DNA of 64,000 nt from Pseudomonadota bacterium (lineage in GTDB: Bacteria; Myxococcota_A; UBA9042; GCA-2863065). Positions within the stretch are counted from its first letter, which is position 1, and every line of letters begins with the position of its first letter. This document shows, piece by piece, positions 26,390 to 60,087 of this stretch. The position numbers and the translations under genes are program-made. The stretch covers positions 20,013 to 84,012 of the forward strand of contig SXOX01000185.1 of the NCBI GenBank assembly GCA_005776585.1, read 5' to 3'. Under the pieces are notes generated by a model that had not been told where the DNA came from, searched no databases, and saw nothing but the letters and a program-made list of their open reading frames with translations.

Positions 26390-26476
26390 GCGGATGTGGC
26401 GGAATTGGTAGACGCGCTAGTTTGAGGTGCTAGTGGCCTTAACTCGGCTGTGGGGGTTCAAATCCCCCCGTCCGCA
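26390..26476 (+). tRNA. tRNA-Leu (GAG), CCA not encoded
   Basis: Acceptor GCGGATG/CGTCCGC with discriminator A, anticodon loop TTGAGGT, long variable arm, GGGGGTTCAAATCCCCC T-arm. Confidence 0.95.
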
Positions 26477-35393: not shown

Positions 35394-36761
35394 TCAGAAG
35401 GAGGCGACGAGGGCCCGACCCGCGGCCGTGAGCGCGGACCAGCCGGCGCGCGTCGAGAGGTCCGGGAGCATCGCACGCAGCGCCCGTGGCCGGGCATAGA
35501 ACCTCAGGAGCGCGTCGCGCTTCAAGCGGCGCAGCACCTGCGGTTCCACGTGCGCGAGCCCGGCGACGAAGCCATCGCCGCTAGCGTCGCCTCCGGGAAG
35601 GCCTTGTCGGTCGGCCTCGGCGCGCAAGATGGTGCCGGGGCGCGCCGCCGCGAGGTTGAAGCTCGCCCAGTCGAGGTCGAGAGCACAGGCGTAGTCGATG
35701 GTGGCGCGCACATCGTCGGCCTCCTCGCCGGGGAGACCGAGCACGAAGTGCCCGCAGACCTGGAGCCCCGCCTCGCGCGCGACGCGGACCGCCGCATCGA
35801 CCACGTCGTTGTCGAAGGGCTTTCCCGAGCGCTTGCGATGCACTGCGGAGCCGGACTCGATCCCGAACTGCACGACTGCGCAGCCCGCTCGCGCCATCGC
35901 GTGCGCCAACTCGGCGTCGAACGGCAAGACCGTGCAGAACGTATTCCAGCGAAGGCCGAGGTCGCGGCGACTGGTGGGGGCCAGCGCGCGGCAGAGCTCC
36001 AGCAGCGAGCGCCGATGGCCATTGGCCGTCGCGTCGCGAAGATAGACCCGCCGGTACCCGAGCGCGGCGACGGCCTCGAACTCGGCGAGCGCCTCATCGA
36101 CCGGCCGGACGCGGTAGCCGAGCTCGCCGGTATTGCAGAACGTGCAGCGAAACGGGCAGCCGTAGCTGGCCAAGACGGAGGCGAAGGGCAAGCCGCCGTG
36201 AAATGGGAGACGGTAGCCACGGGCGGGGAGGAGGTCATGGCGCGCCGTGGGAGCCGACCACGCTCGACCCGTGACGGGAGCCGCCCGACCATCCGGGAAG
36301 CGCAGCCCCTCGGGAAGTGCCTCGCCGTCGAGCCAGCGTGAGACGCCGTCGGTAGCGAAGTCGACGAGCACCGCGTCGAGCCCGGGGACCTCGCGAAAGG
36401 CGCGGTCGGGCTCGAACCGGGCGACGTCGCCGGAGAGCACGAGGCGCGGCGCCGCGCGTCGGTCGAGCGCACGCAGCAGCCGGCGGTAGAACCGAACGTC
36501 ACCAGCGAGGCTCGCGTCGCCGATGAGCCCGACGATGACCTCGGGCGCAAACGCCACGGCGCGGGCGAGCGCAGCCTCGGGGCTCAGCCGCGCGCCAATC
36601 GCGTCGATGAATGCGAGCGTGTGCCCGGCGGCGGAGAGACTGCCCGACTGGGCGAGCAGATCGAGTGGCTGCCAGCAGTAGCCGCTCTTCGAGGAGCTCG
36701 AGCAGTAGCCGTCCCGAAAGGTGGTCCGCTCCGCGGGTGGATTGAGCAGCAAGACACGCAC
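35394..36761 (-). CDS. B12-binding-domain radical SAM protein
   Basis: GTG start candidate MRVLLLNPPAERTTFRDGYC; radical SAM motif YGCPFRCTFCNTGELG; LRWNTFCTVLPFD, GHFVLGLPGEEADDV. Confidence 0.9.
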   Translation of the reverse strand: MRVLLLNPPAERTTFRDGYCSSSSKSGYCWQPLDLLAQSGSLSAAGHTLAFIDAIGARLSPEAALARAVAFAPEVIVGLIGDASLAGDVRFYRRLLRALDRRAAPRLVLSGDVARFEPDRAFREVPGLDAVLVDFATDGVSRWLDGEALPEGLRFPDGRAAPVTGRAWSAPTARHDLLPARGYRLPFHGGLPFASVLASYGCPFRCTFCNTGELGYRVRPVDEALAEFEAVAALGYRRVYLRDATANGHRRSLLELCRALAPTSRRDLGLRWNTFCTVLPFDAELAHAMARAGCAVVQFGIESGSAVHRKRSGKPFDNDVVDAAVRVAREAGLQVCGHFVLGLPGEEADDVRATIDYACALDLDWASFNLAAARPGTILRAEADRQGLPGGDASGDGFVAGLAHVEPQVLRRLKRDALLRFYARPRALRAMLPDLSTRAGWSALTAAGRALVASF

Positions 36762-36769
36762 GGACTCGG

Positions 36770-39190
36770 CTACCGAGGTGCAGGTGGCGAAGTTCCGGCC
36801 TCGGGGAGACGGAGGGTAAGGACCGTACGCCGTTGGTTGGACTCGAGCCTCGGGTCGCGCTGAAGCGTGAGATCGAGACGAGGACCGGTGACGGGGACGC
36901 TCCCGCTCCAAACCGCGCCCGCGAAGCGCGCCTCGAACGTGAGCGGGACGCCGGGGATGGTGAGCGCGGAGGCCGAGAGCGGACCGCCGGCGGCCATCTG
37001 CACTTCGACAAGGACGCGCGGAGGGAGCGGCTCGACGATTGGCAGGCGCAGGCGGACGACGTCCTCGGATTGGACGAGGCCCGTCTGCTGCGGGTGCAGG
37101 TGGTCCGGGAAGAAGCGGTAGTGGCGCAGGGGCTCGCTCAAGTCGACGCGCAGGACGCCGTCTCGCCACGCGCGCTCGGGCGCCGCGGGCACGACGAAGC
37201 GGTACAGACGTAGATAAGCGTAGTCCCAGCGGCCGTCGAAGACCAGATGCGAGGCCAGCCAGTCGAGCTGGTGCTGGCTCATCGACGTGTCGAACTCGTC
37301 GGTGCCGAACATCTCCTCGCGAAACTCGGCGACCCAGAGGCGCTCGAAGGCCAGGTGACCCGCGAGGGTCTCGAGCGTCGCGTTACGCGGATGGAGGGGC
37401 CCATAGAGCCCATCTCGCCACGTAGGAAACGCGAGGAGGTCGGCGGGTTCACGGGCCTGCACCGCGTAGTTGAACGTCTGCGCATAGTAGAGCGCAGGCA
37501 GCGCAGCGAAGGCATCGCCGGGGCGGCGCTCCGCGTCGAGGCGAGCGGCCGCGGCCCATTGATCCGGTCGCTGCGGCGTCCCGAGAATGCGACCGGCGAG
37601 CGCGATCGGTCCGAGCAGCAGGCCCAGGGCGGCCATGAGGCCAAGCCAGCGACGACGTTCGGCGACCACCGCGGCACCGAGGGCCAGCGCGAGCGCAATG
37701 GCAGGGACGAAGACCGTCGTCCATCGGTAGGCGAAGTACACACGGCCACCTGCAAAGCGCAGGTACATCACGTGGACGAACAGGACATAGCCGACGACCA
37801 TCGCCAGATGCAGCCACACGAGCGCCGCGACGTGACGGTCGCGACGACCGAGAGCGAGGGCTCCACGCAACGCGATGGCCACGATCGCGGGCGCCGCCCA
37901 GGCGACGTCGGGCGGAAGCCCGAAGGTCACCGCGGCGATGCGCGCGACGTAGTCGAAGAAGCCGGGATCGGGGAGGTAGTCGGCGCTCATGAGCCGTGTG
38001 GACATGCCGCTCGCGAGGAACGTCCGAATGAAGTGCACGGCCCAGACGAGCGGCAGGACGGAGGCCACGAGGCCTGCGATGAGCGCGGGGCGAGCGCGTG
38101 AGGCGTCGTGGGTACGGCGCCATCGGATGACCTCGGCCACTACGAGCGTGAGGCCGAAGACGGCGGAGGTGTAGTGCACGAAGAAGCCGACGACCTGAGC
38201 CAGGGCGAGCCAGGCGAAGCGGCCCTCGAGCCACGCGACGAACGAGAGCGCGGCCAGGAGCGCGAGCAGGGCGTAGGGGGTCGCGTCGCGTCCGTAGTAG
38301 ACCATGATCGGAGAGAGGCCCGCGAGCAGCCCTGCCATGCGCGCGGGGCCAACCCCATCCACGCACCGGCCAGCGCGGCAGACAGCCAGCACGAGGAGGT
38401 AGTGGCAGGCGACAGAGGGGAGCCTCAGGAGCCACTCGTCGCGTGTGACTGACGCCAGAAGCCGGAGCACCAGCGGCCACAGCGGCGGATGCGACAGCTC
38501 CGCGGAGATGGGATCGGTGAGCAGGGCGAGGGCCGAGACGGGCCGCAGCGCCTCCTGGAGGTAGGTGAACTCGAGCAGGCCGGGGGCCTCGGAGCCGAGC
38601 TTCGCCAGCAGCGGCAGGGTCGTCGCTGCGGCGAGGACGTGGGGGAGCCAGCGATCGTCGGGAGGTCGCGTGGGCCGGAGCGGCACGCGCGGGAGGCGAC
38701 GCAGCAGGAGCGCGCCGGCGCCGAAGACGAGGAGTGCGAGGCCCAGGGCGAGACCGAGGGAGACGCCGAGGCCCCGCTCGCGGACCTCGTGGGCCAGCTC
38801 CATGTCGCCGAGGTCGAAGAGCAGTCGGACGCCCGCGACGTCTTGGGGCCGATAGGGCAGGTTCCGCAGGAAGAAGGACTGGCTGGCGATGACGGAGGGG
38901 CCGAAGCGTTCGCGGTCGAGCACGCCCATGAGGTAGAACGCGCCCACATCGTCGGGCAGGCGCGCTTCGAAGAGGCCGGTCGCGGGCTCCGCCGTGGCGG
39001 TCGCGATCGGGTTGCGGGGATCGGCGAGATCGCGCGACGCAAGGACGATGACGTGAAACGGGTAGAGTCCGCGATAGCCGTCGAGCCGCCCGCGGAGGAC
39101 GACGTCGCCGGCTGCGGCGGTCTCCAGCAGCACCAAGCACGCGGTCACGAGCGGGACGAGGCGGCTCAGCGGTGCGCCTCGAGGCGCCAA
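36770..39190 (-). CDS. Polytopic GT-C-type (GT39/ArnT-like) glycosyltransferase candidate, paralog 1
   Basis: Multi-TM 806 aa with TDPISAELSHPPLWPLVLRLLASVTRDEW and MVYYGRDATPYALLALLAAL; long soluble C-terminal domain. Confidence 0.75.
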   Translation of the reverse strand: MAPRGAPLSRLVPLVTACLVLLETAAAGDVVLRGRLDGYRGLYPFHVIVLASRDLADPRNPIATATAEPATGLFEARLPDDVGAFYLMGVLDRERFGPSVIASQSFFLRNLPYRPQDVAGVRLLFDLGDMELAHEVRERGLGVSLGLALGLALLVFGAGALLLRRLPRVPLRPTRPPDDRWLPHVLAAATTLPLLAKLGSEAPGLLEFTYLQEALRPVSALALLTDPISAELSHPPLWPLVLRLLASVTRDEWLLRLPSVACHYLLVLAVCRAGRCVDGVGPARMAGLLAGLSPIMVYYGRDATPYALLALLAALSFVAWLEGRFAWLALAQVVGFFVHYTSAVFGLTLVVAEVIRWRRTHDASRARPALIAGLVASVLPLVWAVHFIRTFLASGMSTRLMSADYLPDPGFFDYVARIAAVTFGLPPDVAWAAPAIVAIALRGALALGRRDRHVAALVWLHLAMVVGYVLFVHVMYLRFAGGRVYFAYRWTTVFVPAIALALALGAAVVAERRRWLGLMAALGLLLGPIALAGRILGTPQRPDQWAAAARLDAERRPGDAFAALPALYYAQTFNYAVQAREPADLLAFPTWRDGLYGPLHPRNATLETLAGHLAFERLWVAEFREEMFGTDEFDTSMSQHQLDWLASHLVFDGRWDYAYLRLYRFVVPAAPERAWRDGVLRVDLSEPLRHYRFFPDHLHPQQTGLVQSEDVVRLRLPIVEPLPPRVLVEVQMAAGGPLSASALTIPGVPLTFEARFAGAVWSGSVPVTGPRLDLTLQRDPRLESNQRRTVLTLRLPEAGTSPPAPR

Positions 39191-41583
39191 CCACGGGACG
39201 CGAACGAGGAGGGCAGGTGCAGCGCGACGAGGTGGCGATCGCCCACCGTTGGCGCGGCAAAGCGCCAGTGCGGCCCGGCGTCACTCGTCTGCCGGCTCAC
39301 GAGGATGGCGGAGCGGCCATTGACGACGAGCGCGACGCGCTCGGTGACGGCCGCCCCTGGCGGGAGCCGAACGTCGAAGGTGGCGGCAGCGCCGGGGAGG
39401 ACGAGCTCGACGAGGCCGGGGGTCTTCGGCGTCGACGGCGTGAGGTAGCGCTCGGCGCGAAGCGGCTCGCGGGAGTCGACGACGAGCGCGTCACGTCCAC
39501 CCCAGGCGCGATCGGCGGGATTGCGGTACAGCCGAAGCTCGATGCCGGGGAAGGTGTGGGTCTGGAGGAGCTCGAGCTGCGTATCGAGCGCGGCGAGCTG
39601 ATGTTGGGTGAGCGCCTCGTCGAACTTGGGGATTCCGAAGTTGGTCTCGTGCAGGACGGCGACCCAGAGGCGCTGAAAGGCCAGGCGGTCCACCACGGTC
39701 TCCAAAGGCAGATCGTCGAGCCCCTCGACGAGGGGTCCATGCATCGTCGAGGCCCCCACCGCCAACGGGCGCGCCTGCATCCCGGTCAGGAGGTCAGGCG
39801 GCTTGCCTTGCGCGAGGTGGTACTGGAACGGATCGCCATAGAATGACGCGGGGAGGACGGCGTACGCGTCGCCGGGCGCGCCGAGACGCGCCATGGTCTG
39901 GACAGCGTGGTCCTGGGCTGGCCGCTGGGGCGTGGTCACGAGCACCACGGCCTGGACCAGCGAGCCGAGCGCCAGCAGCGCCACGGGCCACCGGCGCCAC
40001 CCCGTGGCGGCGGCGGCGATCGGCACGAGGAAGCCGACGAGCAGCGGCCGAACCCAGCGAAACGCGTAGTAGACCCGCCCGCCGCCGACGGTCGTGCTCA
40101 TCGTATGGCTGAACACTAGCAGCAGCACGACGCACGCGACGTGACCGGCGAGCAGCCAGGACACCGCGCGATGCCGTCGGTAGAGGTCGCGCAGGCCGAG
40201 CCCGACCAGGGGCAAGGTAACGAGGGCGAGCCATGCCGCCTGGGTCGGCAGCCCCGTCAGAACGGCGAGGAAGCGACCGACGAACGCCGCTGCGCCGGGG
40301 CTCTCGGAGAAGACCGGAGACATAAGCGCAAAGCGCACCGAGCTGTTCGAGACCATGGTCCACAGGCGGTCCGCATCACAGAGCGGCAGGATGAGCGCGG
40401 CGGCGAATGCCAGCAACGCCTCGGCCAACACCCTCGGCCGGTGGCGCCACCACGCGAACAGCAGCGCTCCGAGCTGTGCCGCCGAGACGGCCGCGAAAGC
40501 GTAGTGACTGAAGAACCCCAGGACGTGTGTGAGGCTGAACGCCGTCCACAGGAGCCAGCGACGTGAGCTGCGATCGTCGCCGACCCGAAGGAGCAACCAC
40601 ACGCTGGCGGCTCCCATGAGGCCAGCAAACGCATACGGCGTCGCATCACGCCCGTAGTAGAGGGCGAGGGGCATGGTCGCTGCGAGCAGGCCGGCGAGGG
40701 ACATGCGCCAAGGGTCGAGCAGACGGCGCGCGATGGCGACGACGAGGGCGACGAACCCTCCGAACGCGAGCACGGATGGGAGCCGAAGGGCTGTGGGCGC
40801 GGTCGTCACCGACGCGACGGCGCGGAGGATCAGCGGTTCGATGGGGGCATGGGAGAGCTCCGACGAGATCGGGTTCGAGATGACACCGAGCCAGTTGGAC
40901 GGACGCACGCCCTCGTGAAAGTAGGAGTACTCGAGGAGATCGAGGGGCTCATGGCCCAGGCCGACGAAACCGAGGCCGCCGGCCAGAACAGCGAAACTGA
41001 GAGGCGCCCACCGGACCGCAGGTCGCGGGTGTGGTTGGCGTGGGAGCGGCAGCTCGACCTCCACGTGGGCCGGTCCTTTCGCGCGCCGAGCTGCACGGAG
41101 CAGCCAAAACGCCAGCAGGACCAGGAGGCCGAGTAACCCGAAGCCCACGGACCGGTGGGGCCCCTCGGGTGCACGAGCCCCTGACCAGAGCACGTGGGTG
41201 CGCTCGAGGTCGGGGACTTGCACCGCGAGTGACTCGGGCGCGCCCTGTGCGCACGGCCCGAGGACCGGAAAGACGCGTCGACAGCCGTCGAATCGCTCCG
41301 CGACGAGATCGTCGTAGGAGCAGCCGCTCGCGACCATGGGGTAGACGACCTCCGCCGCCGACACCGTAATCGCAAAGGCTCCCGTGTCGCGATCCACGGG
41401 CGCGATCCCCGCAACGAGCCGTGACTCGCGCAGGTCGCGCCCACGAAGAGCGACGATCCACAGGCCGTCAGCCGCACCTCCGCCTCGAACACGACCGCGT
41501 AGCTCCCATGCCGTGGCCTCGGTCGACAGCGACATCGCACCTGCGACCGCAATCCACCCAAGCCACGAGCCACCCCGACGCAC
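39166..41583 (-). CDS. Polytopic GT-C-type glycosyltransferase candidate, paralog 2
   Basis: 805 aa; shares SNPISSELSHAPIEPLILRAVASVT and LYYGRDATPYAFAGLMGAA with paralog 1; 25-bp overlap with paralog 1. Confidence 0.75.
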   Translation of the reverse strand: MRRGGSWLGWIAVAGAMSLSTEATAWELRGRVRGGGAADGLWIVALRGRDLRESRLVAGIAPVDRDTGAFAITVSAAEVVYPMVASGCSYDDLVAERFDGCRRVFPVLGPCAQGAPESLAVQVPDLERTHVLWSGARAPEGPHRSVGFGLLGLLVLLAFWLLRAARRAKGPAHVEVELPLPRQPHPRPAVRWAPLSFAVLAGGLGFVGLGHEPLDLLEYSYFHEGVRPSNWLGVISNPISSELSHAPIEPLILRAVASVTTAPTALRLPSVLAFGGFVALVVAIARRLLDPWRMSLAGLLAATMPLALYYGRDATPYAFAGLMGAASVWLLLRVGDDRSSRRWLLWTAFSLTHVLGFFSHYAFAAVSAAQLGALLFAWWRHRPRVLAEALLAFAAALILPLCDADRLWTMVSNSSVRFALMSPVFSESPGAAAFVGRFLAVLTGLPTQAAWLALVTLPLVGLGLRDLYRRHRAVSWLLAGHVACVVLLLVFSHTMSTTVGGGRVYYAFRWVRPLLVGFLVPIAAAATGWRRWPVALLALGSLVQAVVLVTTPQRPAQDHAVQTMARLGAPGDAYAVLPASFYGDPFQYHLAQGKPPDLLTGMQARPLAVGASTMHGPLVEGLDDLPLETVVDRLAFQRLWVAVLHETNFGIPKFDEALTQHQLAALDTQLELLQTHTFPGIELRLYRNPADRAWGGRDALVVDSREPLRAERYLTPSTPKTPGLVELVLPGAAATFDVRLPPGAAVTERVALVVNGRSAILVSRQTSDAGPHWRFAAPTVGDRHLVALHLPSSFASRGWRLEAHR

Positions 41584-41605
41584 GTCAGGGAGACTAATGG
41601 GAGCG

Positions 41606-41628
41606 TCTGGCGCCGTCGAGGCGCCAGA
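41606..41628. other. Perfect inverted repeat TCTGGCGCC-GTCGA-GGCGCCAGA (9-bp stem, 5-nt loop)
   Basis: Read directly; abuts the stop codon of the 41629..41691 micro-ORF; no T-tract on either side. Confidence 0.85.
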
Positions 41629-41691
41629 TCACGCGGGCGGCGTAGGACGCGGTCGGGGCACGGGCGCGGGGCGCCAGTTTGTCGTGCTCAT
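41629..41691 (-). CDS. Proline-rich 20-codon micro-ORF (MSTTNWRPAPVPRPRPTPPA), candidate leader peptide
   Basis: ATG with GAGGAG SD 7 nt upstream; 9 of 20 codons are Pro; stop followed immediately by hairpin. Confidence 0.4.
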   Translation of the reverse strand: MSTTNWRPAPVPRPRPTPPA

Positions 41692-41742
41692 GGTGACTCT
41701 CCTCGGTTTCAGTTCATTGCGACGACGATCGCCGCAATGGGT

Positions 41743-41771
41743 AGCATCCTGAGCCTCTCGCGCCATGTCAA
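41743..41771 (-). promoter_or_regulatory. Candidate sigma70-type promoter TTGACA-N17-GATGCT
   Basis: Perfect -35 (plus-strand tgtcaa 41766-41771), 17-nt spacer, GATGCT; within the 41584-41817 gap. Confidence 0.45.
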
Positions 41772-41817
41772 ACGGTCCGGAGGGCGCGGGCGCCCGTTGT
41801 GTAATGTTTCTCGACCC

Positions 41818-43317
41818 TTAGAACTGAAACTCCACGAACGGGTACTCCGGGCTCGACCGATCGCGTGGCGTCGTCGGTTCCAGGAGTGAGGGTACGCGGA
41901 GTGACTGTGTGAGGGCGTCCCAGTGCATGCGTCGGGCCACGCCGCAGCCCGAGGCGGCCTGCCATTCGACATGCGCGAGGCCGGTAGAGACCGCCCGCTC
42001 GAGCCGCCCATCGCGAAGTCGGCGACACCGAACACAGCGAGATGCGTCGGCTCCGACGAAGACGTCCGCGTTGAGCACGACCTGACTGGCGACCTCATCG
42101 GCGTCGGTCTCGGAGACCGTCGTCAGCTCCAGTGGCGCGCAGCGCGGGCCTACGTGCGCTGCGAGCGCAGCGGCGACGCGATTGGCGGTCAGCGTCCCTT
42201 CTCGCCAGACCCGCTCATTGGCGACGCAGAGCGCCAGGAGCGCCGCGAGCGTCACCGCGACGACGAGCTTGGCACGCGCCCCCTCGACCGACTGCGGCAG
42301 GGCCAGCGCGAGCCAGATCGCGGACGCAGCGAGCGGCAGGTGAAAGAAGTACCAGCGAAGCTCGAAGCCACCCTCGGCCGCCGAAACGAAGCGCCACGCG
42401 TCGTGGTACTGCGGAAGGAACGGCAGCATCGTGGCCAGAACGACCGCGGTCCCCCGACGAAGCGGCCTGCGCCAGGCCAAGCCCACGACGGTCGCTGCGA
42501 GCAGAACGAAGGCGACGACACGGAGCGCGCCCGCGCCAGCAACGGCCGGATGCACGGGCATGAGCGGCCAACCAAGCGCAGCGAGGAGCGCCAACTGGGG
42601 AGACTCGACCCAATGAAACGAACCGGCCGTGCCGTGACCGGCCGCACGCGTCAGAGCGACGCGCACCGCGACGTGGAGTGCGAGCACGCCTGCATACGCG
42701 AGCAGCCACGCCCATCGCGAACGGTGCGACCCTGCCGTCGGAACGAGGAACACGAGCGCTGAAACACAGGCCGCGTTCTCCCTGGTCAGGGTGGCAAGGC
42801 CGAACCAGAGCAACGCGAGACGATGTCTCCCACGCAGCCACGCCAGCGCCCAGAGGAGGAGCGGCGCGGTGACCGTCATCCCCTCGAAGCCGCTATGGGG
42901 CCACGCGAGCGCTTCGGAGTGCAGCGGAAACGCCGCAAAGACGAGCGAAGCGACCGCGGCGCGTACCGTGCCCGACCCGACCACGACCGCGCATCGAGCA
43001 ATGAGCACGGACGAGGCGAGATGCAGCAGTGCATTGGTCACGAGCCGCGGAGCGGCGGCGCCACCAAACAGCGCAAACTCGACTCCGGCACGTGCAGTCG
43101 AGAGCGGACGCCACGTCGGCTCGGAGGTCCACAGCGTCGCCAGCTGCTCAAGCCGGTCGCCCCAACCTGCCGAGGCGACCGCCTGGCCCATGCGCAACAC
43201 GAAGGCGTCATCGCCATCGAGATAGCCCCCAGGCCAAGCCGCGCCCACCTGAACGGCTACGATGACGCCGAGCGCAACCCAGTAGCTGAGCGGAAGGCGC
43301 TCCGAGCCCGCCGTCAT
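41818..43317 (-). CDS. Polytopic membrane protein (GT-C-like)
   Basis: 499 aa, many TM segments; GYLDGDDAFVLRMGQAV early-loop acidic motif and TLWTSEPTWRPLSTARAGVEFALFG, compatible with GT-C; starts 1 nt after GT2 stop. Confidence 0.65.
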   Translation of the reverse strand: MTAGSERLPLSYWVALGVIVAVQVGAAWPGGYLDGDDAFVLRMGQAVASAGWGDRLEQLATLWTSEPTWRPLSTARAGVEFALFGGAAAPRLVTNALLHLASSVLIARCAVVVGSGTVRAAVASLVFAAFPLHSEALAWPHSGFEGMTVTAPLLLWALAWLRGRHRLALLWFGLATLTRENAACVSALVFLVPTAGSHRSRWAWLLAYAGVLALHVAVRVALTRAAGHGTAGSFHWVESPQLALLAALGWPLMPVHPAVAGAGALRVVAFVLLAATVVGLAWRRPLRRGTAVVLATMLPFLPQYHDAWRFVSAAEGGFELRWYFFHLPLAASAIWLALALPQSVEGARAKLVVAVTLAALLALCVANERVWREGTLTANRVAAALAAHVGPRCAPLELTTVSETDADEVASQVVLNADVFVGADASRCVRCRRLRDGRLERAVSTGLAHVEWQAASGCGVARRMHWDALTQSLRVPSLLEPTTPRDRSSPEYPFVEFQF

Positions 43318-43318
43318 C

Positions 43319-44032
43319 TCAGGCCGAAACCAGCTCTCGCCAGTGCGTCACGATCTCGCGAGCCGCGTGGCTCACGGCGAAGAGATCGGCCCCCTTGGGG
43401 CGACCCGCCTGACGGGGGCGATGCCTCACGGGAAGCTCGATGACGGCCAGACCCGCACGGGTCGCCTTGGCCATGAGCTCGGCTCCAAACAAGTTCCCTT
43501 CGCAGACGAGGCGAACTCGGTCGAGCACCGAACGCCGCATCACCTTGAGCCCGCAGTCGACGTCCAGGTACTGCGTCCCCGTGGCCAGCCGCACCGACGC
43601 GTTGTAGGCAAACCCGATGGCGCGCCGATGCGGCGGATCGACGCGAGCGTGGCGAGCCCCCGCGACGAGGTCATAGCCTCCGCCCTCCAAGACGGTCGTC
43701 AAGTAGCGCAGGTCCCCCGGGTCGAGCTGACCGTCCCCGTCGAGGTAGGCAACCCGAGCCGCGGTCGCCGACACAAGGCCCCGATAGACGGCCACGCCAT
43801 AGCCGCGACGTTGCTCGTTGCGCAGCACGCGGACAGACAACGCGGAGCACGCCGACCGAGCCACGTCCGCCGTCCCATCGCTGCTGCCATCGTCGACGAC
43901 GACGACCTCCGTCGCGCCAGCTGCCTCCGGCCACCCGCCGACCTGCTCCTCGAGACCCGCAAGCAGCGCGGGTAACGATTCACGTTCGTCGTGCGCCGGA
44001 ATGACGATGGACAGCCACGGGGGCGACGTCAT
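43319..44032 (-). CDS. Glycosyltransferase family 2 (dolichyl-phosphate mannosyltransferase-like)
   Basis: LSIVIPAHDERESLPALLAGL, EVVVVDDGSSDGTADVAR, VAYLDGDGQLDPGDL; ATG overlaps the stop of the giant gene. Confidence 0.92.
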   Translation of the reverse strand: MTSPPWLSIVIPAHDERESLPALLAGLEEQVGGWPEAAGATEVVVVDDGSSDGTADVARSACSALSVRVLRNEQRRGYGVAVYRGLVSATAARVAYLDGDGQLDPGDLRYLTTVLEGGGYDLVAGARHARVDPPHRRAIGFAYNASVRLATGTQYLDVDCGLKVMRRSVLDRVRLVCEGNLFGAELMAKATRAGLAVIELPVRHRPRQAGRPKGADLFAVSHAAREIVTHWRELVSA

Positions 44033-47000
44033 GGACAGAGCGGTTCGCCGACCTTTGCCGAGTTGCCGCACTTGTACTGAGGCTGGCCGTTCTTGGCGCA
44101 GAGGTCGTCGGTGCAGAAGTTGCCATCCTCACAGCCGTCGTCAGCGCTGCAGCCGTTGCAGCCGGGCGTGACCGTGAACTTGCATCCGCTCTGTGAGCCC
44201 GTGTCGCAGAAGTCGGTCGTGCACGGGTTGTAGTCGTTGCACACGCGGGGCGAGTAGACGCACACTCCCTGGAAGCACTCGGAGTAGGTGCACTGGGTCT
44301 CGTTTCCGCACTGCGCGCTCGGAGCACCAGGGGGATCCGTGCAGACCTTGAAGACCGAGGCAGGATCTGACGTGCAGACACCCGTGGCGTTGTCGCAGGT
44401 ATCGAGCGTGTTCGGGTTGCCGTCATTGCAGCCCGACTTGAGCGCGACGCTGCACTTGCCCGCGACACAGGAGGTCTTGTAGCACGGGCCCAGGGTCGGG
44501 CAATCCGTCGCCTGAGTGCACGTCTTTCCGCCGCAGGTGCTGTCGACCAGCTTCATGCAGCCCGAGTTCGTCGCGTCACACAGCGCCGAGCCATCGACCG
44601 TGCACGGGTTGCCGTCGTTGCACTCAACCGCCGTGTGGCTGCATTGCCCGGAGACCAGGTCGCAGCGGTCAACCGTGCAGTTGTCAACGTCCAGGCACTC
44701 GCGATCGAGCGTGCACTTCACAATGTTGCACTCCGGTACCGCGCTCGGCAGGTCGTAGCAGTTGCCGGTGGAGTCGCACAGGTCGATCGTACAGTCGTTG
44801 TTGTCGTCGCAGTCGAGCTCCTGAGACACCAGCTTGCACTTCCGACACCCTGCAATGAGCGTATGACTGCACTGCGCCGTCGACGTGTCACACAGATCCG
44901 TGCTGCACAGGTCGAAGTCGTTGCAGTCGGCGTTGTTGGAGCATCCCTGGCAGCCCGGGAGCGCGGTGAAGATGCAGCCAACCGCCGGATCGCAGGCGTC
45001 GGTCGTGCAGGGGTTCAGGTCGTTGCAGTGAATCGCGACCACGAAGCACTCGCAGTTGGCCTCACCAGACAGGCAGTTGCCTTGCGCGCCACTGCACGTG
45101 GCCGGGTTGCACTTGTCCCCAAAGTCGCAGTCGGCGTTCGTAGTACATGAGCCCGTCCAGTTGCACCCGGGCACAGACACGGTCTTGATGAGACCGGTCA
45201 GGTTGTCGCAGTAGTGCTTGGTGCACGGGTCATCCGGGGGAATCGGCACCAGCTCGGGCTCCTGACAGATGCCATTGAGGCACTTGTGAACCGAGCACTT
45301 GAGGCCATCATCGCAGTCAGCGTCTTGGACGCAGGTCGCCGTGCACGGGATGGCCGGCTGAAGCAGGCAGCCCGTCACCGGATCGCAGGCGAGCTTCGAG
45401 ACGGTGTTCGCGCCTGACCCGGTCGTCGTGAACTCGGTGGTACACGCAAGGCCGTCCTGGCAAGCGACGGTTCGAGACTCGCAGAAGCCGTTGACGCAGC
45501 GCTCGAACGTGCAGGCATTCGAGTCAAAGCAGTCCACGTCCTTGGCGCACGCCTTCTTGCCGCAGTTGGAGTTGTACTTGTTGGTGCACGCGTGCGTCGT
45601 GGGGTTGCAGATATCGGACGTACAGACGTCGGCGTCGTTGCAGTCGGCGTCGCTCGTGCCACACGCATTCTTGCAGTTGATGATCTTGGTGAACTGGCAG
45701 CCATTCGTCTTGCTGCACGTGTCAGTGGTGCATGCGTTCGAGTCGCTGCACTCGAGCGGATCGAGCAGGCAGTACCCGGAAGGCATGCAGCTGTCGACCG
45801 TGCAGGCGTCCGAGTCATTGCAGTCGAGGCTCGTCACGCACTTGCCCTTGCATCCCGCGACCGTCTTGGACGTGCACGTCCCGTTCTTGCAGGTGTCGAG
45901 CGTGCAGGGGTTGCCGTCATCGCACACGAGCACCTGTACGGCGCACTTGCCCGACTGACAGACGCCTGGAGCGCACTTGTTCCCGGTATCGCAGTCGGCG
46001 TCTGTGGCGCAGCTCGCCGTGCACTCCAGATCGGGCGTGGTGACGCAACCGCGCGTCGGATCGCAGATGGTCAATGAGGTGCAGGGCTTGCCATCATCGC
46101 ATTGGGTCGCCGTCCAGAAGCACTTGCCGGCGACGCGGTCGCAGCGATCGGCCGTGCACGCGTTGCCGTCAAAGCAGTCCATGTCCGCCGTGCAGTTCTT
46201 CGGACAGGTCACCGTCGTCACGGCGTCGTGCCAGCACTTCAGGGCCGAGGTCGGGTCGTTCTCTTCGGTTCGACAGTAGTCGATGGTGCAGTTGTCCCCG
46301 TCGTTGCAGTGGTAGTTCGTGGTGCACGGTCCGCCACCCCAGCCGCCGCACTTGGGCAGCGTCGGATCTGCGACGTGGAGACAGAATGAGAGCACTGCAT
46401 GACATGAATCTACGGTACACGCATTACCGTCGTCGCAGGCGACCGCCTGCGTACTCGCAGGCAGGGTCGGGTTGCACTTGGTGCAATCAGGCACCTTGAA
46501 GACGATACACCGGTGGGACGTCTGGTCGCACTGGCCAAACGAGCAGATGTCCGAGACGCCGCACTCCGCGTTGAGCGTGCACGGCAGACAGTTCGAGATC
46601 AGGTCGAACGTGCACACGCCCGACGTACACACGCCGGTCGTGCAGGCGTTGCCGTCGTCGCAGTCCGCACCCGTGACGCAGCCGGTACAGCCGGCAATCG
46701 GGACGAACTCGCACTTCTTGGTCGCGACGTTGCACGAGTCTACGGTGCACGGATTGTAGTCGTTGCATGCAATCTCGATCTGGAAGCACGCGCCCTCGAC
46801 GCAACGCGGTGGAGCACATCCTGCGACGCCGACGTCCGGGCAGTCCGAATCGGCGAAACACGCACCAGAGCACGTCGGATCGGCCGGATGACCACAGGCC
46901 TTCTTCACGGAATCGCAGATGTTGAACGTGCAATCGTCGTCGTCCTCACACAGGTTGTCACCTTCCAGCTTGCAAGCACCTGCGACGCACGTGTAGCCGC

Positions 47001-50000
47001 TGCACGCATCGACCTCCTGGCAATCCGCGGTCGTGTTGCACGGCTTCCCGTTCGGTACACGGTGCAGGTAGGTGCAACCATATCCCTCGATACAGGAGCC
47101 GTTCGCCGGAATGGCGGGGTTGGCCGAGTACACGCAGTCGGGAGCGAGGTGGCGACACAGGCTAGAGCCGACATAGCACTCGTCCCGAGTGCAGGTGTGA
47201 TCGTCGACACACTCGGAGTCCGTCTTGCAGTAGATGGTCGGGCAATTGGGGACCGGCTCATACGAGCATTGACCGAGGACGCAGGCGTCAGAGGTGCAGG
47301 CGTCGTCGTCATCACAGTCACTCGACGCCGAGCACTGGCCGTCGACGCACGACCCGGCGACCTTCGTGAACGTGCAGCCCACCGCAGGATCGCAGGAGTC
47401 AACGGTGCAGCTGTTGTAGTCGTTGCAGTTGTAGGACTCGAAGATGCAGGTCTTGCCGACCGGATCACAGCTCGAACGGAGGCACTTGTTGCCGAGAGCC
47501 AGACAGTCGTCGCTCGTCGCGCATACGGTCCCGCGATTGGTGCAGACGGTGTCCGACTTGTGGACGCACAGGCCATCGACCGGGTTGCAGTAGCTGAACG
47601 TGCACTTGTTCGCGTCATCGCAGACGACGAGCTGATGCTGGCACTTGTACTTGTCGAGGTCGCACACGTCCTTGGTACACGGATTCAGGTCATCGCAGTC
47701 CAGGTCCGCGTCGCAGCCGGCGCAGTTGGCCGTGGAGAAGAACTGGCACCCGCGCGATGGGTCACAGGCCACGGTCCCGAGCGTCGCGTCCACCTCACCG
47801 GTGCACGTGACCTCGTCGTTGCAAATCTTGGCCTTGGAGCCGCACGTAAAGTTCTGAGGCACCGAGGTGTCGCAGAAGTACTCGAGGCACAGGTTGGGAA
47901 CTGCCGGCACGCACTCGGCGTCGGTCCCGCCGGGGCAGGGCGTGCAATTCAACGAGGGCTTCCACGCGCACGTCCCGTTCGCGACGTCACCGGTTGCGCC
48001 CTGACACTCGTCCTGGGTACACGGGTTTCCGTCATCGCAGTCCGCGGCCTTGGCGCAGTACTCCACGCAACCCGCGTACTGGGTGTGGACGCACAGCTGC
48101 GTCGCCGACGTGCATGTATCGTAGGTGCAGTCGATCTTGTCGGCGCAGGCCTTGGGCGTATTGAGGCACTTTCCGCCAATGCAGACGTCGACGGTACATG
48201 CATTGGAGTCGTTGCACGTCGCTGCGGTGGTGCACGCCTGGCCGCACACGGTCGCGACCTTCTCGTGCTCGCAGGGATCGGCGCCCGACTTCGTCGGATT
48301 GCAGAAATCGCGCGTGCAGACGTCCGAGTCATCGCACGTCAAGACGACGTTCTCGCACTTGCCGGTCGTCGGGTTGCAGCTGTCCGCAGTGCATCGGTCG
48401 AGGTCCGCGCACTTCAGCGCCTTGAACTCGCACTGCCCGGTGGCGGGGTTGCAGCTGTCGTCGGTGCACTTGTTGCCGTCGTTGCAGGGCTTGAGCGTCG
48501 ACTTGCAGGTGCCGGCGTTGGCGTCACAGAAGTCGAGCGTACACGGGCTCCCGTCTTCGCAGACCAAGGCAACGCTCTTGCACGTGCCGTTGGTGCAGGT
48601 GTCGAGCGTGCAGTTGTCGCCGTCGTTGCAGGTCTGGGGCGTGAACTTGCAGAGACCTGTGGCCGTGTCGCAGGAATCGCTCGTGCACGCGTTGAGGTCG
48701 TTGCAGAGCACCGGCGAGTTCACGCAGGACCCGGTCACGGTGTCGCAGACGTCGGTCGTGCAGAGGTTGGTGTCCTTGCAGTCCTTGAAGGTGAAGGTAC
48801 ACGCGCCGGTAGTCGCGTCACACGTGTCGATTGTACAGGCCTTGCCGTCGTTGCAGGTGATCGGCGTCGAGAGACACTTGGCCAGGAGGACGTTGCAGAA
48901 ATCGGTCGTGCACTTGTCACCGTCATCGCAGACCAACGGGGTGTACTTGCATCCGGTCGTCTGGTCACACGTGTCGGTCGTGCACGCGTCGTTGTCGTTG
49001 CAGGCACCAATCTGGTCGTGAGCGCACAGGCCGGTCGTCGGCGAGCAGGAGTCCTTGGTGCACGCGTTCTTGTCGTCGCAGTCGATTGGGGTGGCGACGC
49101 AGCCGCCCTTGGCCTTGTCGCACACGTCGGTCGTGCACTTGCTGTTGTCGTCACAGACACGCGGCAACGACTTGCACGTCTTGGTCGCCTGGTCGCACTT
49201 GGCGATCTGGCACGGGTCACCGAACACCAGCGGTCCGCACGTGCCGTCGCTGCCATCCGGGCAACCCACGTCGGGGCAGGCCTTGGCCGGGTTCTGACAG
49301 CCCACGCCGGCCGCGCAGAGGTCGTCGGTGCACAGGTTGCCGTCATTGCACAGATTCGGTGCGTGCTGGCAGTCGCCGTTGACACAGAAGTCGATTGAGC
49401 ACGGGTCGCCATCGTTGCAGGTCTTCTGGTTGTACTTGCAGACCTTGTTCCCGCCCTGCTGGACGCAGACGTCGGTCGTGCACGGGTCGAGATCGTTGCA
49501 CTCGGAGTCCGCGGTGCAGGCGCACAGGACGCCCGGAATCGGGACGTTCTGGCAGCCGATGGCGGAGTTGCAGCTGTCGACCGTGCACGCCTTGCCGTCA
49601 TCACAGCTCTTCGCAGGGTAAGCGCAGCCCGTATCGGCGTCGCACTTGTCGTCGGTGCAGGGGTTCGAGTCGATGCAGACGACGCCCACGTTGCGGCAGC
49701 CCTTCGCGCCATCGCAGAAGTCGACGGTGCACACGTTTCCGTCGTTGCAGTTGACCGCCACATGGACGCAACCGAGGGTCGGCAAGCAGCCGTCGGAGGT
49801 GCACGCGTTCCCGTCGTCGCAGTTGACCAGCGTGTTCACGCAACCGACGAGCTTGTCGCAGTAGTCGTTGGAGCACAGGCTGCTGTCATCGCAGCTGACG
49901 ATCTCGTGGGCGCAGTTGCCCGTGGCCTGACTACAGGAGTCCTTGGTGCACGCGTCGCCGTCGTCGCACGACTTCTTGACGAACACGCAGCCCTTGGTCG

Positions 50001-53000
50001 GATCACAGGTGTCATTGGTGCATGGGTTGCCGTCGGTGCAGGTCAGCGGCGTGTAGCTGCAGCCGGTCGCGACCGAGCACGTGTCGACCGTGCAGGCGTT
50101 CTGGTCGTCGCACGCGGAGACCGTCGTGCATCCGAGCTCGGTGGTCGCATCGCACAGGTCCTTGGTGCAGGTGTCGCCGTCGTCGCAGACCTTCGGGACG
50201 TACTGGCAGCCGTGCTGCTTGTCGCACGTCTGGCCCAAGGCGTTGGACTCCACCGTGCACGGGTTGTCGTCGTTGCAATCGACCGGCTGATACGAGCACT
50301 GGCCAGTCCCCGGGTTGCAGAGGTCCTTGGTGCACGCGTCGAAGTCCGAGCAGTCCTTGGCGAAGTGGAGGCAGCCCGCAACCGAGTCGCAGACGTCGAA
50401 CGTGCATTGGCTGTTGTCATCGCACCCGAACGTGTACGTACACCCGATCGTGGCGTTGCAGGTGTCCGTGGTGCATGGGTCGGTGTCGGCGCATTGTAGG
50501 GGAACGTGGACGCACGCTCCGTTCGCCGCGCAGGCATCGCTCGTACACGGGTCGGCGTCGGCGCAGTTCTTCGGCACGAACACGCAGCCGCCGATCTTGT
50601 CGCACGCGTCGGTCGTGCAGGGATTGCCATCGGCGCACGTGGTCGCTGAGTTCTGGCACTTGCCACCGAGGCACTTGTCGGTCGTGCAAACGGAGGCGTC
50701 GTTGCAGTCGGCGTCATTCGAACACGGTGGCGTACACGGATTGAGCGCCGAATTGAAGCACCCGGTGACGCCATTGCACTGGTCGAGCGTGCAGTAGATG
50801 CCGTCAGAGCAGTTGATCGGCGTAAACTTGCAGCCTGTCGCCAGGTCGCAGGTGTCGGTCGTGCAGACGGAGCCGTCGTTGCACGTGATGGCCTTCGAGG
50901 CGCACTTACCGTCGAGCGGGGCGCAGGTGTCGGTCGTGCATGCGTTCTGGTCCGAGCAGTTCTTTGGCGTGTGCACGCAGCCCGTCGCGGAGTTGCAGGT
51001 GTCAATGGTGCACAGGTTCAGTGCGCCGCCGACCTGATCCTGGCAGTCGACCGGCCCGTGAGAGCAGCCCAGTGTCGTCCCGTCACAGACATCGACCGTG
51101 CAGGCGTCGTTGTCATCGCACTTGTTGCTGTGGAGGCAGCCCTTCGCCGGGTCGCAGGAATCCACGGTGCACGACGAGCCATCGTCGCAGTTGGTGGCCT
51201 CGTGATAGCAGCCGTCCTGCTCATCGCAGAGGTCCTGAGTGCACGCATCAGCGTCGCGGCAGACCGTCTCGATGAGGTTGACGTGAGAGCACACGCCGGT
51301 GGTCTTGTTGCACAGGTCGGAGGTGCAGTTCAGTCCGTCGCTACAGTCGACGAGCGGCGGATTCTGGCAACCGAGCACCGGGTCGCACAGGTCCTTGGTG
51401 CACACGTCCTTGTCATCGCAGGCGTACGTGTTGACGCAGCCGAGCGCCGGGTCGCACTTGTCGGCCGTGCACGCGTTGAAGTCGTTGCAGTCCTTGATGG
51501 TGTGCTGGCAGAGGCCCGTACCGGAGTCGCAGAAGTCGGTCGTGCACTTGAGGCCATCGTCGCAGTTGACGGCCTTCAGCTGGCACCCGATGACCTTGTC
51601 GCACACATCGATCGTGCATGGGTTCGCGTCGTTGCAGCTGATCGCGGTCTGCGTGCAGACCTTGCCCTTGGTTCCGCCAAGGTCCTGGCACTTCGACGCA
51701 GTGCAGGCGTTGCCGTCATCGCAGTCGCTGTCGAGCCCGCTCGGGCACGGGACGGTGCACGGGTTGATCGCCGAGTGGACGCACCCGGTCGAGACGTCGC
51801 AGAGGTCCTGCGTGCACGGCTTCTTGTCGTCGCAGTCGACCGCGACGTTGATCGGGGTCGCCACACAGCCGAGCTTCGTATCGCACGAGTCGAGCGTGCA
51901 CTTGTTCGAGTCGTTGCACACCTTGAGGGTGTACGCGCAGATTCCGGTCGCCTTGTTGCAGCCGTCAGTCGTGCACTCGTTCTGGTCGTTGCACGCCTTC
52001 TGCTGGAAGATGCAGCCCTTCTCCGGAAGACACGCGTTGAGCGTACAGGCATCGCCGTCGTCGCAGAGGATCTGCGTGTGGGAGCAGGCGAGCGTGTCGG
52101 AGCAGACATCGGCCGTGCAGGCGTCGCCATCGTCGCAGTAGGACAGGTGCACGCAGCCCTTGACCGGATCGCACACATCGACGGTGCAGACCGTCCCGTC
52201 ATCACACGACTCGGGCGGGTTCAAACAGCCGTCCTCCGGGTCGCACAGCGCGTTCAGGCAGTTCTGTCCAGGTGGGTTGCAGAAGAGGATCGAGTCCTGC
52301 GTACACGGCTTGCCGTCGTTGCACGGGTTGACCGGGTTGGAGCAGGCGCCGTTCGTCTTGTCGCACACATCCAGCGTACAGAGGTTGCCATCCGAGCAGT
52401 TCTTCTGCTTGTTGACACAGCCCAAGAGCGGGTCGCACGTGTCAATGGTGCAGGCATTCGCGTCATTGCACGCGTAGACGTTCGTGCACCCGGCGACCGC
52501 GTCGCACTTGTCGGTCGTGCACGGGTTGTTGTCGTTGCACGTGTTCTTCGGGTTGGTGCACTTGCCGGAGCCGGTGTCGCAGACGTCCTGAGTGCACGGG
52601 TTTCCGTCCGAGCAATTCTTCTGCGGAAACACGCACCCCACGAGCGGATTGCAGCCGTTGTCGGTGCAGGGGTTCTGATCGTCGCAGACGGGCGTCGTGT
52701 GAGTGCAGTTCTTGTTCGTCTCGCACTTGTCGATGGTGCACGCGTTGCCGTCGTCGCACTCGGCTTGTGTGCCGCCGGGGCACGGATTCGGACAGGTTGG
52801 CCCGAGCGGAACGAACACGCAGCCGGCCTTGGGATCGCACGTGTCGATGGTACAGATGTCCTTGTCCTTGCACGGAATTGCGTCGTGGAGGCAGCCCGAG
52901 AAGATGTTGCAGGAGTCGAGGGTGCAGGCGTCCTTGTCGTCGCAGCTCGTGACGGAGTAGGTGCACTGGCCCGTGAGCGCGTTGCAGACGTCCGTCGTGC

Positions 53001-56000
53001 AGGCGTTGCCGTCGTCGCAGTTGACCAGAGCGTTCGAGCACGCACCCGTCAGCGGGTTGCACGAGTCTTGTGTGCACGGGTTTTTGTCGTCGCAGGCCGT
53101 CGAGAACTTGCAGGTCGCGGTGGCCTCGTCGCAGACGTCCTTGGTGCACGGGTTGTTGTCGTTGCAGGTGAACGTCTCGTGGCCGCAGACGCCGGTCGCC
53201 TTGGCGCAGGTGTCCTTGGTGCACGGGTTATTGTCGTTGCAGTTCTTTGGGATGTGCCCGCAGGCTTGCGTGACCGGGTCGCACGTGTCAGTCGTGCACT
53301 CGTCGGCGTCCTTGCAGAGCGGCGGGTAGATACAGCCCGACGCCGCATCGCACAGGTTGACGGTGCAGGCGTTGGAGTCGTCGCACGAGACCGTGGTGTA
53401 GCTGCACGTCCCGGCGGGCTTGGTGCACTTGTCGATGGTGCAGACGTTCTTGTCGTCGCACTTGGACTGATAGGTACAGCCCTTGATCGGGTCGCAGCCG
53501 TCGTTGGTGCAGACGTCGTTGTCGTTGCACTGGACTGGCGTGTAATCACACGTCCCCTTGGTCGCGTTGCAGACCTCGGTGGTGCACGCCGAGCCATCGT
53601 CGCAGTTGAGCTTCGTGAAGGTGCAGCCCTTGACGGGATCGCACTTGTCGACCGTGCAGCCGTCGGTGTCCTTGCAGACGAGCAACGTGTAGATGCATCC
53701 AGTCACCTTGTTGCACGTGTCCGAGGTGCACTTGTCCTTGTCGTCGCACGGCTTCACCGGGTGGAGGCAGGTGCCCGTCGCGGCGTCACACTTGTCGTCG
53801 GTGCACAGGTCCGTGTCCGCGCAGTTCTTCGGCGTGTTGAGGCAGAGCCCGGTCAGCGAGTCGCAGGCGTCGTCTGTGCACTTGTTGCCGTCATCACACT
53901 TATTGACGGTGTTGACGCAATTGCCCGTCCCCACATCGCAGGTATCGACAGTGCAGGGGTTCTTGTCGTCGCAGTTCTTCGCGAGGTTCTGACAGCCGAC
54001 GCCCTCGGCGCACTTGTCCGTCGTGCACTTCTTGCCGTCGTCGCACGACAGCGGTGCGTTGATGCAGTCTCCTGTCGCCGGGTTGCACGAGTCCTGGCTG
54101 CAGACCGAGGAGTCATCGCACACCCGCGGGACGTGCAGGCAGCCCAAGGTCTGGTCACAGGAGTCCGCGGTGCAGTTGAGGCCGTCCTCGCAGAACTCGG
54201 GCTTGTGGGAACAGTTTCCGGTGTCCGCGACGCACGCGTCGATGGTGCACTCATTGCCGTCGCCGCAGTCGACCGGCTTATTCAAGCAGGAACCCGTCGT
54301 GGGGTCGCAGGAGTCCTGAGTGCACGGCTTCGAATCGTCGCAGCTCTTCGGTGGGTTGGTGCAGCCGCCGGAGGCGTCGCAGTTGTCGAGCGTGCACGGG
54401 TTCTTGTCGTCGCAGGCGCCGGGGTGCAGGCAGGCGCCGTCGTCCTTGTTGCAGACGTCGCTCGTACACACGTTGGCATCGTCACACTGCTTGGGCTTGT
54501 GGTCGCAGACGCCCGTGGTCTTGAGGCAGGTGTCATCGGAGCAGTTGTCGTTGTCCGAGCAGTTCTTGGTCGCGAACACGCAGAGCCCCGTCACGGTGTC
54601 GCAGGAGTCGTCGGTGCACTTGTTTTGGTCGTCGCAGACCTTGGGCGGGTGATCGCAGGCGCCCGTGGCCGCGAGGCAGACGTCTGCCGTACACGCGTTG
54701 CCGTCGCCGCAGTCCGTTGCGTCGTGGTCGCAGTTGAACGTCCCCGCGATCGGGTTGGACAGGCACTTGTCGAACGTGCACTTGTTGGCGTCGTCGCAGC
54801 CCTGTGGCGTGAAGGTACACTTGCCCTTGCCCGCCGTGATCGTGCACTTCGCCGAGACGCAGTAGTCGATGACCTTGGTGCCCGGCTTGAGCGGATTGTC
54901 GACCATGCGATACGGATCGCAGTCGCCGTCGAGCTTGCAGTCCGGCGGTCCGCAGTCGGGGCTCTTGGTGTCCCACGTGTAGCTACAGCCCGCGCCGCCG
55001 TTGCAGCTATCGATCGTGCACTTGTTCTGGTCGTCGCACGTCGACGGGAAGAGGCAGGCGCCACCAGAGCAAAGGTCGACGGTGCACGGATCAGAGTCCT
55101 TGCACTTGGCGCCATAGGTGCACGCGCCAGTGTCCGCCGCGCACGTGTCCGTGGTGCAGGCATCCTTGTCGTCGCACTTGTTCGGGAAGTCGCACGTCCC
55201 GGTCGCCGGGTTGCAGGTGTTCGCCGTACAAATATCTGCGTCCGTGCACACGATGGCGTTGTTGGAGCACGCTCCAGTGAGCGGATTGCACTGGTCATTG
55301 GTGCACTTGTTGCCGTCGTCGCACGTGACCGGCGGATTCTTGCAGCCGGTCTTGGGGTCGCACTGGTCGAGTGTGCACTTGCTAAAGTCGTCGCAGCTCT
55401 TGAGCGAGGTGGTGCAGGCGCCGGTGCCGGCCTCACAGGCGTCCACAGTACAGGCGTCCTGGTCGTCGCAGACCTTGGGCGTGTAGGTGCAGTTGCCCGT
55501 GCCCGTGTCGCAGGCATCGAGGGTACACTTGATGCCGTCGTCGCAGGTGATCGCCGTGCTGGCGCAGTTGCCGCTCGTCGGGTCACAGGCGTCCTTCGTG
55601 CAGAGCTTTCCGTCAGAGCAGTCCTTGGGCGGGAAGGTGCAGGACCCTAGCTTGGAGTCGCACCCATCGACGGTGCAAGGGTCGCCGTCGTTGCAGGTGA
55701 TCGCGGTGCTCGCGCACGCGCCGGTCCCGGCAGTGCAGGTGTCTACCGTACACAGATTCTTGTCGTCGCAGGACTTGGGCTTGGTCTGACACTGCCCGTT
55801 GATCGGGTTGCATGAGTCGACGCTGCACGGATCCTGATCATCGCAGACCTTGGGCGTGTAGATACACGCGCCGGTCGCCACGGTGCACGTGTCGGCCGTA
55901 CAGGGGTTCTTGTCGTCGCAGTCCGTGTCCAGGCCGCACTTGCAGTTCGCGCCGACGACGAACACGTAGACGCAGCCCTGGATCGGGTTGCAGGACTCCG

Positions 56001-59000: not shown

Positions 59001-59430
59001 CGCCGTCGTCGCAGTTCACGGCACCGAAGACGCAGACGCCGAGCTGAAGCGCGTCGCAGTAGCCGGTCTTGCAGAAGAACTGAGAGTTGCAGAAGTCGTC
59101 CCACTGAGCCGCGGTCTTGGAGGCGTCGCCGCAGTCGAAGCAGTCCGCCTTGGCCGGGTGGTTGCAGCCGGTCGCCGGGTCGCACAGGTCGTCGGTGCAA
59201 GACTTGCCGTCGAAGCAGGTGATGGCGGTGAAGACGCACTCGCCGAACTTGTCGGCGTCCTTGGTCTTCTTGCAGCTGGCCTCGAGGCACTTGTTCGCGC
59301 CGTTGGTGGGGTGCTTCGCGCAGTCGGTCGCGAGCGTAGCGGCCTCGCACGGGTAGCAGGTCGGGAGCTTGGACCAGCTGCAGATGCCGCTGCCGGCGCC
59401 CTGTTGGTCGTTGCAGGTGTCGATGGTGCA
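44029..59430 (-). repeat. Very long protein-coding repeat array, unit roughly 24-35 codons (CDDxNxCTxDxCDxxxGxCxxxxxx)
   Basis: Repeats evident in translation; units diverged rather than identical at DNA level. Confidence 0.88.
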
Positions 59431-59760: not shown

Positions 59761-59858
59761 ATGGTGCGTCGCTTCGCGAAGTCGCACACCCACCTCCAAT
59801 GACCTTCCCACGCCAAAACCCCGAGGCCACCCACAGGACGGCCGCTTCCCAGCGTGGC

Positions 59859-59888
59859 ATCTTAGGCACATCGTGGCCGGAGGATCAA
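59859..59888 (-). promoter_or_regulatory. Weak candidate promoter TTGATC-N18-TAAGAT for the giant gene
   Basis: Plus-strand gatcaa 59883-59888 and atctta 59859-59864; ~95 nt upstream of the GTG start. Confidence 0.3.
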
Positions 59889-60027: not shown

Positions 60028-60087
60028 GGGGCGTCAGGGCGAGCCCCCGGGCGGGAAGTGCGCGCCAGGCCGGCAGTGGAGGGGAAG

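Follow-up and report, generated by a model that had tools for sequence, protein, structure and literature searches.

In a 64,000-nucleotide stretch of DNA (the window) from a 7 Mb genome (86.7% complete), a gene for a giant repeat lipoprotein is followed by genes for glycosyltransferase-like and membrane proteins and a B12-type radical SAM enzyme. Do these genes form one coupled system for decorating the giant, as a sequence-only reading had proposed, or do they belong to units that merely meet here? We compared the locus with its relatives in a family set of four genomes from three genera: the window genome, two genomes of one genus (G001 and G003) and one of another (G002). Genes were called with a simple codon model. 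The relatives are draft contigs, joined by exact overlap and in one case by homology only, and the frequency of neighbouring genes was compared with gene density informally.

Layout of the locus and the giant lipoprotein

On the minus strand of the window the order is giant, GT2, MEM (a membrane protein), a 234-nt gap, GTC1, GTC2 and the B12-type radical SAM gene. The junctions described by the sequence-only reading proved exact: the stop of the giant and the start of GT2 share an ATGA at 44032-44029, and the GT2 stop (43319) lies 1 nt from the ATG of MEM (43317). All cassette genes are on the same strand, and two GT-C paralogs and the radical SAM gene follow MEM as claimed. The paralogs were said to overlap by 25 nt. 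The pair was confirmed, and the length of the overlap depends on a putative TTG start of GTC2 (the pair overlaps by 4 nt in G003). The implied continuity of the cassette did not hold, since the gap between MEM and GTC1 (41584-41817) contains a micro-ORF and a hairpin. Scans for sigma-70 promoters and T-run terminators returned nothing beyond shuffled sequences, and no riboswitch or known RNA other than tRNA reached the Rfam cut-offs. The sole match of the window at gathering cut-offs was a tRNA gene (26390-26476, plus strand). A gene for a Kazal-domain protein (59974-61656, plus strand) is divergent from the giant, as it is in G001 and G002.

The giant gene (44029-59931, minus strand) encodes a protein of ~5,300 aa with 814 Cys and about 142 CTxDxC repeats (PF00526, Dicty_CTDC); all three segments tested matched this family, at 117 to 522 bits (cut-off 27). 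Its start codon (59931) is uncertain, and a lipobox (...LVALVALGAC) is found at residue 82 of the longest reading, which, with the repeats, bears out the earlier assignment as a CTDC lipoprotein. Orthologous giants were present in 4/4 family genomes, each with a lipobox and of nearly equal length: 5,300 aa in the window, 5,286 in G002, ~5,282 in G001 (pieced from two contigs) and 5,267 in G003 (from three contigs overlapping by exactly 55 nt). At 49-51% identity, the giants of G002 and G003 retain 792-793 of the 814 cysteines (97%). Note that the GC content of G002 is 53-55%, compared to 64-70% in the other family genomes, with the length of the giant almost unchanged.

PF00526 is the repeat of the Dictyostelium matrix proteins EcmA and EcmB (PMC9117722). 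In contrast to these, the giant is a bacterial lipoprotein of 5,300 aa with a fixed repeat register, and the likeness seen is one of repeat sequence.

CTDC giants occurred in all 55 genomes of the class, mostly without cassette genes. In family f7 no glycosyltransferase adjoins the giant, whose neighbours mark a conserved housekeeping location (L115, L117, L118, L122, L127, L130 and L131); the adjoining genes are presumably prs and thiI, names that we assigned by eye from the sequence. In another family, a DPMS-like GT2 gene lies directly upstream of a 1,801-aa CTDC protein (L126, G004:C262, 4246-10518, minus strand), a gene order opposite to that of the window.

GT2 and MEM beside the giant

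GT2 (43319-44032, minus strand) encodes a 237-aa protein that lacks a membrane domain of its own. It matched Glycos_transf_2 at 5e-25, and its closest solved relatives were ArnC (5.7e-17), DPMS (6e-11) and the GtrB-type sll0501 (7.5e-4). By sequence, GT2 thus resembles the polyprenyl-phosphate sugar synthases ArnC, DPMS and GtrB. It had been described as making a polyprenyl-phosphate sugar; the family assignment stands, with the product predicted from these matches.

MEM (41818-43317, minus strand) is a 499-aa multi-TM protein without a match in Pfam, and its first loop carries a conserved D36/D37 pair. Its profile aligned with the GTC profile (hhalign E 2e-7, probability 93.6%) over 111 columns only. 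Run against PDB sequences, the profiles of MEM and of the GT-C proteins found no match, and a single-sequence structure model of MEM had a pLDDT of 40. The partial profile link makes MEM a likely GT-C glycosyltransferase and a candidate for acting on the giant.

Three genomes, from two genera, share the order giant-GT2-MEM (the window, G001:C52 and G003:C574), and the GT2 and MEM ORFs overlap by 23 nt in G001 and G003. Because the same order recurs in three genomes, with overlapping ORFs in two, the association appears to exceed chance. In G002 the giant is followed by a 637-aa multi-TM protein with no adjoining GT2, and the homologs of GT2 and MEM are located elsewhere, at two separate sites. 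The 637-aa protein was considered as a MEM homolog and set aside, as homology was not detected (hhalign probability 1%), yet both proteins have a [WY]RPL[ST] motif. Downstream of the giant, a multi-TM protein is therefore present in 4/4 family genomes and GT2 in 3/4. The claim that the giant is coupled with a downstream GT2 and membrane protein is upheld by the common order in three of the four genomes. Together with the family of GT2, these counts support a predicted, dedicated glycosylation of the giant.

We consider the locus to combine two modules, the first (giant-GT2-MEM) being a dedicated glycosylation unit and the second separable from it, and we give this reading an even chance of being correct. 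For module 1, gene order, coupling, conservation at the family level and the family of GT2 are observed. The giant would be secreted and anchored as a lipoprotein. At the inner membrane face, GT2 would load a sugar onto polyprenyl phosphate, and the loaded carrier would be flipped across. MEM, if it is a GT-C enzyme using the donor made by GT2, could then glycosylate Thr/Ser or Asn residues of the giant, the putative acceptor, during its passage through the periplasm. Counting against this scheme, GT2 is not beside the giant in G002, the membrane protein there has no detected homology to MEM, and the CTDC giants of other families lack such genes.

A similar division of labour is known from actinobacteria, where Ppm1 makes polyprenol-phosphate-mannose and Pmt uses it on secreted proteins (PMC5882110). 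The Ppm1-Pmt pair likewise joins a GT2 polyprenyl-phosphate sugar synthase to a GT-C enzyme acting on secreted proteins, the scheme proposed here for module 1. In contrast to that system, the enzyme genes of the window accompany the gene of a single giant as candidate acceptor, and sugar transfer is predicted from the genes. The PMT (GT39) domain was absent in Pfam searches: GTC1 and GTC2 matched PMT_2 (PF13231) only, and MEM nothing.

The second comparison is with ArnC-ArnT and GtrB-GtrC, since GT2 is nearest to ArnC in sequence and the fold of GTC2 is near that of ArnT. There the acceptor is lipid A or O-antigen, whereas in the window it is a protein gene to which the genes are coupled. Accordingly, GT2 and the GT-C enzymes might serve to make or alter a glycolipid of the envelope (LPS, lipid A or exopolysaccharide), their genes adjoining the giant only through a common neighbourhood of envelope genes. 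Two enzymes acting on lipid A would fit this explanation: ArnC is the closest solved relative of GT2, and ArnT ranks with the best fold matches of GTC2. So would the occurrence of GT-C pair and radical SAM gene at a distance from giants. Less readily explained is the direct succession of giant, GT2 and MEM in three genomes, where ORFs overlap, together with the multi-TM protein next to the giant in the fourth, and we regard this explanation as somewhat unlikely overall. For the GT-C enzymes in particular, the acceptor could be lipid A or another glycolipid, as for ArnT.

The GT-C pair and the radical SAM gene

GTC1 (39166-41583, minus strand, GTG start) encodes 805 aa, with a signal peptide, an N-terminal domain, a GT-C (PMT_2) core and a C-terminal domain. 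Its paralog GTC2 (36770-39190, minus strand) has 806 aa. PMT_2 scored 41.2 and 32.2 bits on GTC1 and GTC2, above the curated cut-off of 26.1. An AlphaFold model of GTC2 was of moderate quality (pLDDT 62.5), and its best 24 PDB matches (E up to 2e-3) were all GT-C enzymes or complexes holding one, with nearly all TM-scores <0.5. These matches included ArnT, OST, AglB and Emb/EmbB, at a probability of 1.00, as well as AftA and ALG9. The domain scores and the modelled fold support the assignment of GTC1 and GTC2 as GT-C glycosyltransferases, in agreement with the sequence-only reading, which had called them GT-C-like.

The radical SAM gene (35394-36761, minus strand) encodes a B12-type enzyme with a CxxxCxxC motif that is AprD4/HpnJ-like. 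Its start is most likely the GTG at 36761, 8 nt past the GTC2 stop. The B12 domain scored below the Pfam cut-off (27.3 vs 32.1 bits), and the protein fell far under every NCBIfam cut-off for AprD4, HpnJ, ApyD and PhpK, the best score being 108.7 bits for AprD4 (cut-off 500).

The positions of these genes vary among the relatives. In G002 the giant, the 637-aa membrane protein, a micro-ORF and the GTC pair again lie together; note that C5 and C462 are contigs sharing a 123-nt overlap, and that C62, which begins with the end of GTC1, was joined by homology reading. In G003 the pair is away from the giant and follows a gene that probably encodes a response regulator; behind the intact GTC2 lies a second, partial copy (L061, G003:C245, 2945-3928). 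G001 has neither a GTC pair nor a microprotein. The pair thus adjoins the giant in 2/4 family genomes. The same holds for the radical SAM gene and the giant region: in G002 it is on the other side of the giant, beyond the Kazal gene and a gene for a 998-aa FG-GAP/ASPIC protein, and in G001 and G003 its homologs (about 60% identical) are away from the giant. The proposed coupling of giant, GT-C pair and radical SAM gene is not supported as one system and is rescued only in part by G002.

Strong GTC2 homologs (E < 1e-20) were found in the four family genomes and G059 only. Outside the family, 51 class genomes have CTDC giants but lack any close homolog of GTC1 and GTC2; G059 carries GT-C and radical SAM genes without a CTDC hit. 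The sequence-only reading had held that a cassette conserved without the giant, or the reverse, would refute it; since both arrangements occur, the full cassette is not a conserved unit. A co-occurrence of CTDC giants with the cassette was rejected for the class, most giants being without these genes. Likewise, we rejected a single operon from the giant to the radical SAM gene as a conserved unit, in view of the intervening micro-ORF and hairpin and of the separation of the parts in relatives. The GTC pair and the radical SAM gene are looser partners of the giant than GT2 and MEM.

GT-C and B12 radical SAM genes are themselves recurrent neighbours, in the window, G001:C32, G003:C631, G002:C192 and a further family, f17. 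The large proteins of f17 (L166, L167, L165 and L145) have 1.6-1.9 kaa and 16-20 predicted TM segments, a multi-TM N-terminal half being joined in them to a GTC-type half (PMT_2), and their genes adjoin microprotein and radical SAM genes.

WRPAP microproteins

The gap upstream of GTC1 holds a micro-ORF of 20 codons, MSTTNWRPAPVPRPRPTPPA (41691-41629, minus strand), with a ribosome-binding site, GAGGAGAG, just 5' of it; the sequence-only reading had overlooked this gene. Directly after its stop lies a GC-rich hairpin with a perfect 9-bp stem (41606-41628, minus strand), which is terminator-like and has no T run; the 60 nt 3' of the stop gave a fold z of -3.6. Counterparts precede GTC1 in G002, M(M)SNNWRPAPLPKPKPTPAA, and in G003, VALTNWRPAPLPKPKPKPAS (GTG start), so that a microprotein adjoins the GTC pair in all three family genomes having that pair.

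A degenerate pattern search of 94 genomes returned 5 sites, and the reversed pattern none. With a looser pattern, 386 genomes of the phylum yielded 17 sites, including 7/7 f17 genomes. As the reversed pattern gave ~9 scattered matches, sporadic forward matches are to be taken as background. Still wider patterns added four copies in family f7. The resulting microprotein family comprises 16 copies of 19-23 aa in three families, a count that is exploratory because the patterns were widened after results had been seen. All 16 share W R P A P x P x P x P, the fixed Trp, Arg, Ala and Pro positions being required by the search itself. Start, stop, ribosome-binding site, Lys/Arg positions and gene context were outside the search criteria, and they are missing from chance pattern hits. 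The start codon lies 1-6 codons before the W, a ribosome-binding site is present in 14/16 copies, and third codon positions vary, with an entropy of 0.95-1.70 bits at the fixed Pro, Arg and Ala codons. We attribute to chance the hits in G113, G114, G021, G025:C225 and G341 and the 'WRPAPKPAPAP' hits of family f28, none of which had a proper start or ribosome-binding site. Searches of Pfam, NCBIfam and Rfam gave no match to the microprotein. In the open literature we found no matching peptide system, the letters WRPAP appearing only in two unrelated papers.

At all 11 loci outside the window's family, the microprotein adjoins B12 radical SAM and/or fused GT-C genes. The f17 copies read M(N/Q)WRPAP(I/V)PKPxPKP... 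and follow a 470-aa B12 radical SAM gene in 5/7 loci. The large protein (1.6-1.9 kaa where complete) adjoins the microprotein in 6/7, the contig of G267 being too short; its C-terminal half is GTC-like, with PMT_2 in both proteins scanned. In f7 the microprotein is upstream of the same tandem B12 radical SAM pair in 4/4 copies. At one locus, five radical SAM genes surround a single microprotein gene within ~8 kb (L239, G041:C69, 2966-10924). In the window the microprotein is 5 kb from the radical SAM gene, and those of G002 and G003 have no adjoining radical SAM gene. Two isolated copies have no radical SAM or GT-C neighbour, one in the window's own genome (L164, G000:C264, W at 2690, minus strand) and one in G002 (L146, G002:C97, W at 2154, minus strand).

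The micro-ORF might be a regulatory leader peptide (attenuator) for the next gene, with proline-rich stalling setting the hairpin. Its Pro-X repeats, the hairpin just past the stop and its place before GTC1 in the window's family, or before the radical SAM pair in f7, would agree with such a role. However, in five f17 loci the micro-ORF is downstream of the radical SAM gene, and the next gene is convergent or there is no same-strand follower, which leaves it no gene to lead; moreover, the conserved residues W, R and A should not matter for stalling. As enzyme genes come after the microprotein in two families but before it in the third, we consider a leader peptide quite improbable.

Alternatively, module 2 could be a small ribosomal-peptide pathway in which the WRPAP microprotein is the substrate of the B12 radical SAM enzyme, and of the GT-C enzyme where present, the giant being irrelevant. 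The recurrent context at 11/11 outside loci and in 3/3 family genomes with the GT-C pair speaks for this, as do good ribosome-binding sites in most copies and synonymous variation around the fixed residues. PqqA is similar in size to the microprotein. In PqqA-PqqE and other radical SAM peptide pathways, a peptide of ~20 aa is encoded beside the radical SAM gene, as is the microprotein; unlike these, the microprotein has no recognised precursor family or leader, the radical SAM enzymes beside it are of the B12-binding type, and GT-C genes are near. Indeed, the whole ORF has 19-23 codons, with no leader region. GT-C enzymes work outside the cytoplasm, whereas the microprotein lacks a signal sequence, and neither the G002 and G003 copies without an adjoining radical SAM gene nor the two solitary ones are expected from such a pathway. 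We therefore view it as possible and somewhat unlikely.

In the two-module reading, module 2 (microprotein-GTC1-GTC2, here with the radical SAM gene downstream) would be a separate unit that meets the giant in 2/4 family genomes. The recurring GT-C and B12 radical SAM genes and the conserved microprotein are observed, and the GT-C fold is seen in the model. Its GT-C enzymes may act on a polyprenyl-linked sugar, and the radical SAM enzyme may modify that sugar or the microprotein; all of this chemistry we infer. Our leading guess, a tentative one, is that the microprotein is a substrate, partner or accessory of the radical SAM enzyme. More broadly, and with comparable reserve, we suggest that WRPAP microproteins could be an undescribed class of leaderless ribosomal micro-peptides, processed or used by B12 radical SAM and GT-C enzymes in three families of the phylum and recruited beside the giant in the window's family.

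Should the giant receive sugars from enzymes of its own operon, an uncultured lineage would offer a pair of enzyme and acceptor on which protein glycosylation can be tested. It would then also be worth asking how a 5,300-aa protein with 814 cysteines is kept at constant length. The microprotein family is the more surprising finding: a conserved gene, too short for routine annotation, that is tied to B12 radical SAM and GT-C genes. Radical SAM enzymes whose function is unknown thereby gain a specific molecule to be tried as their substrate or partner.
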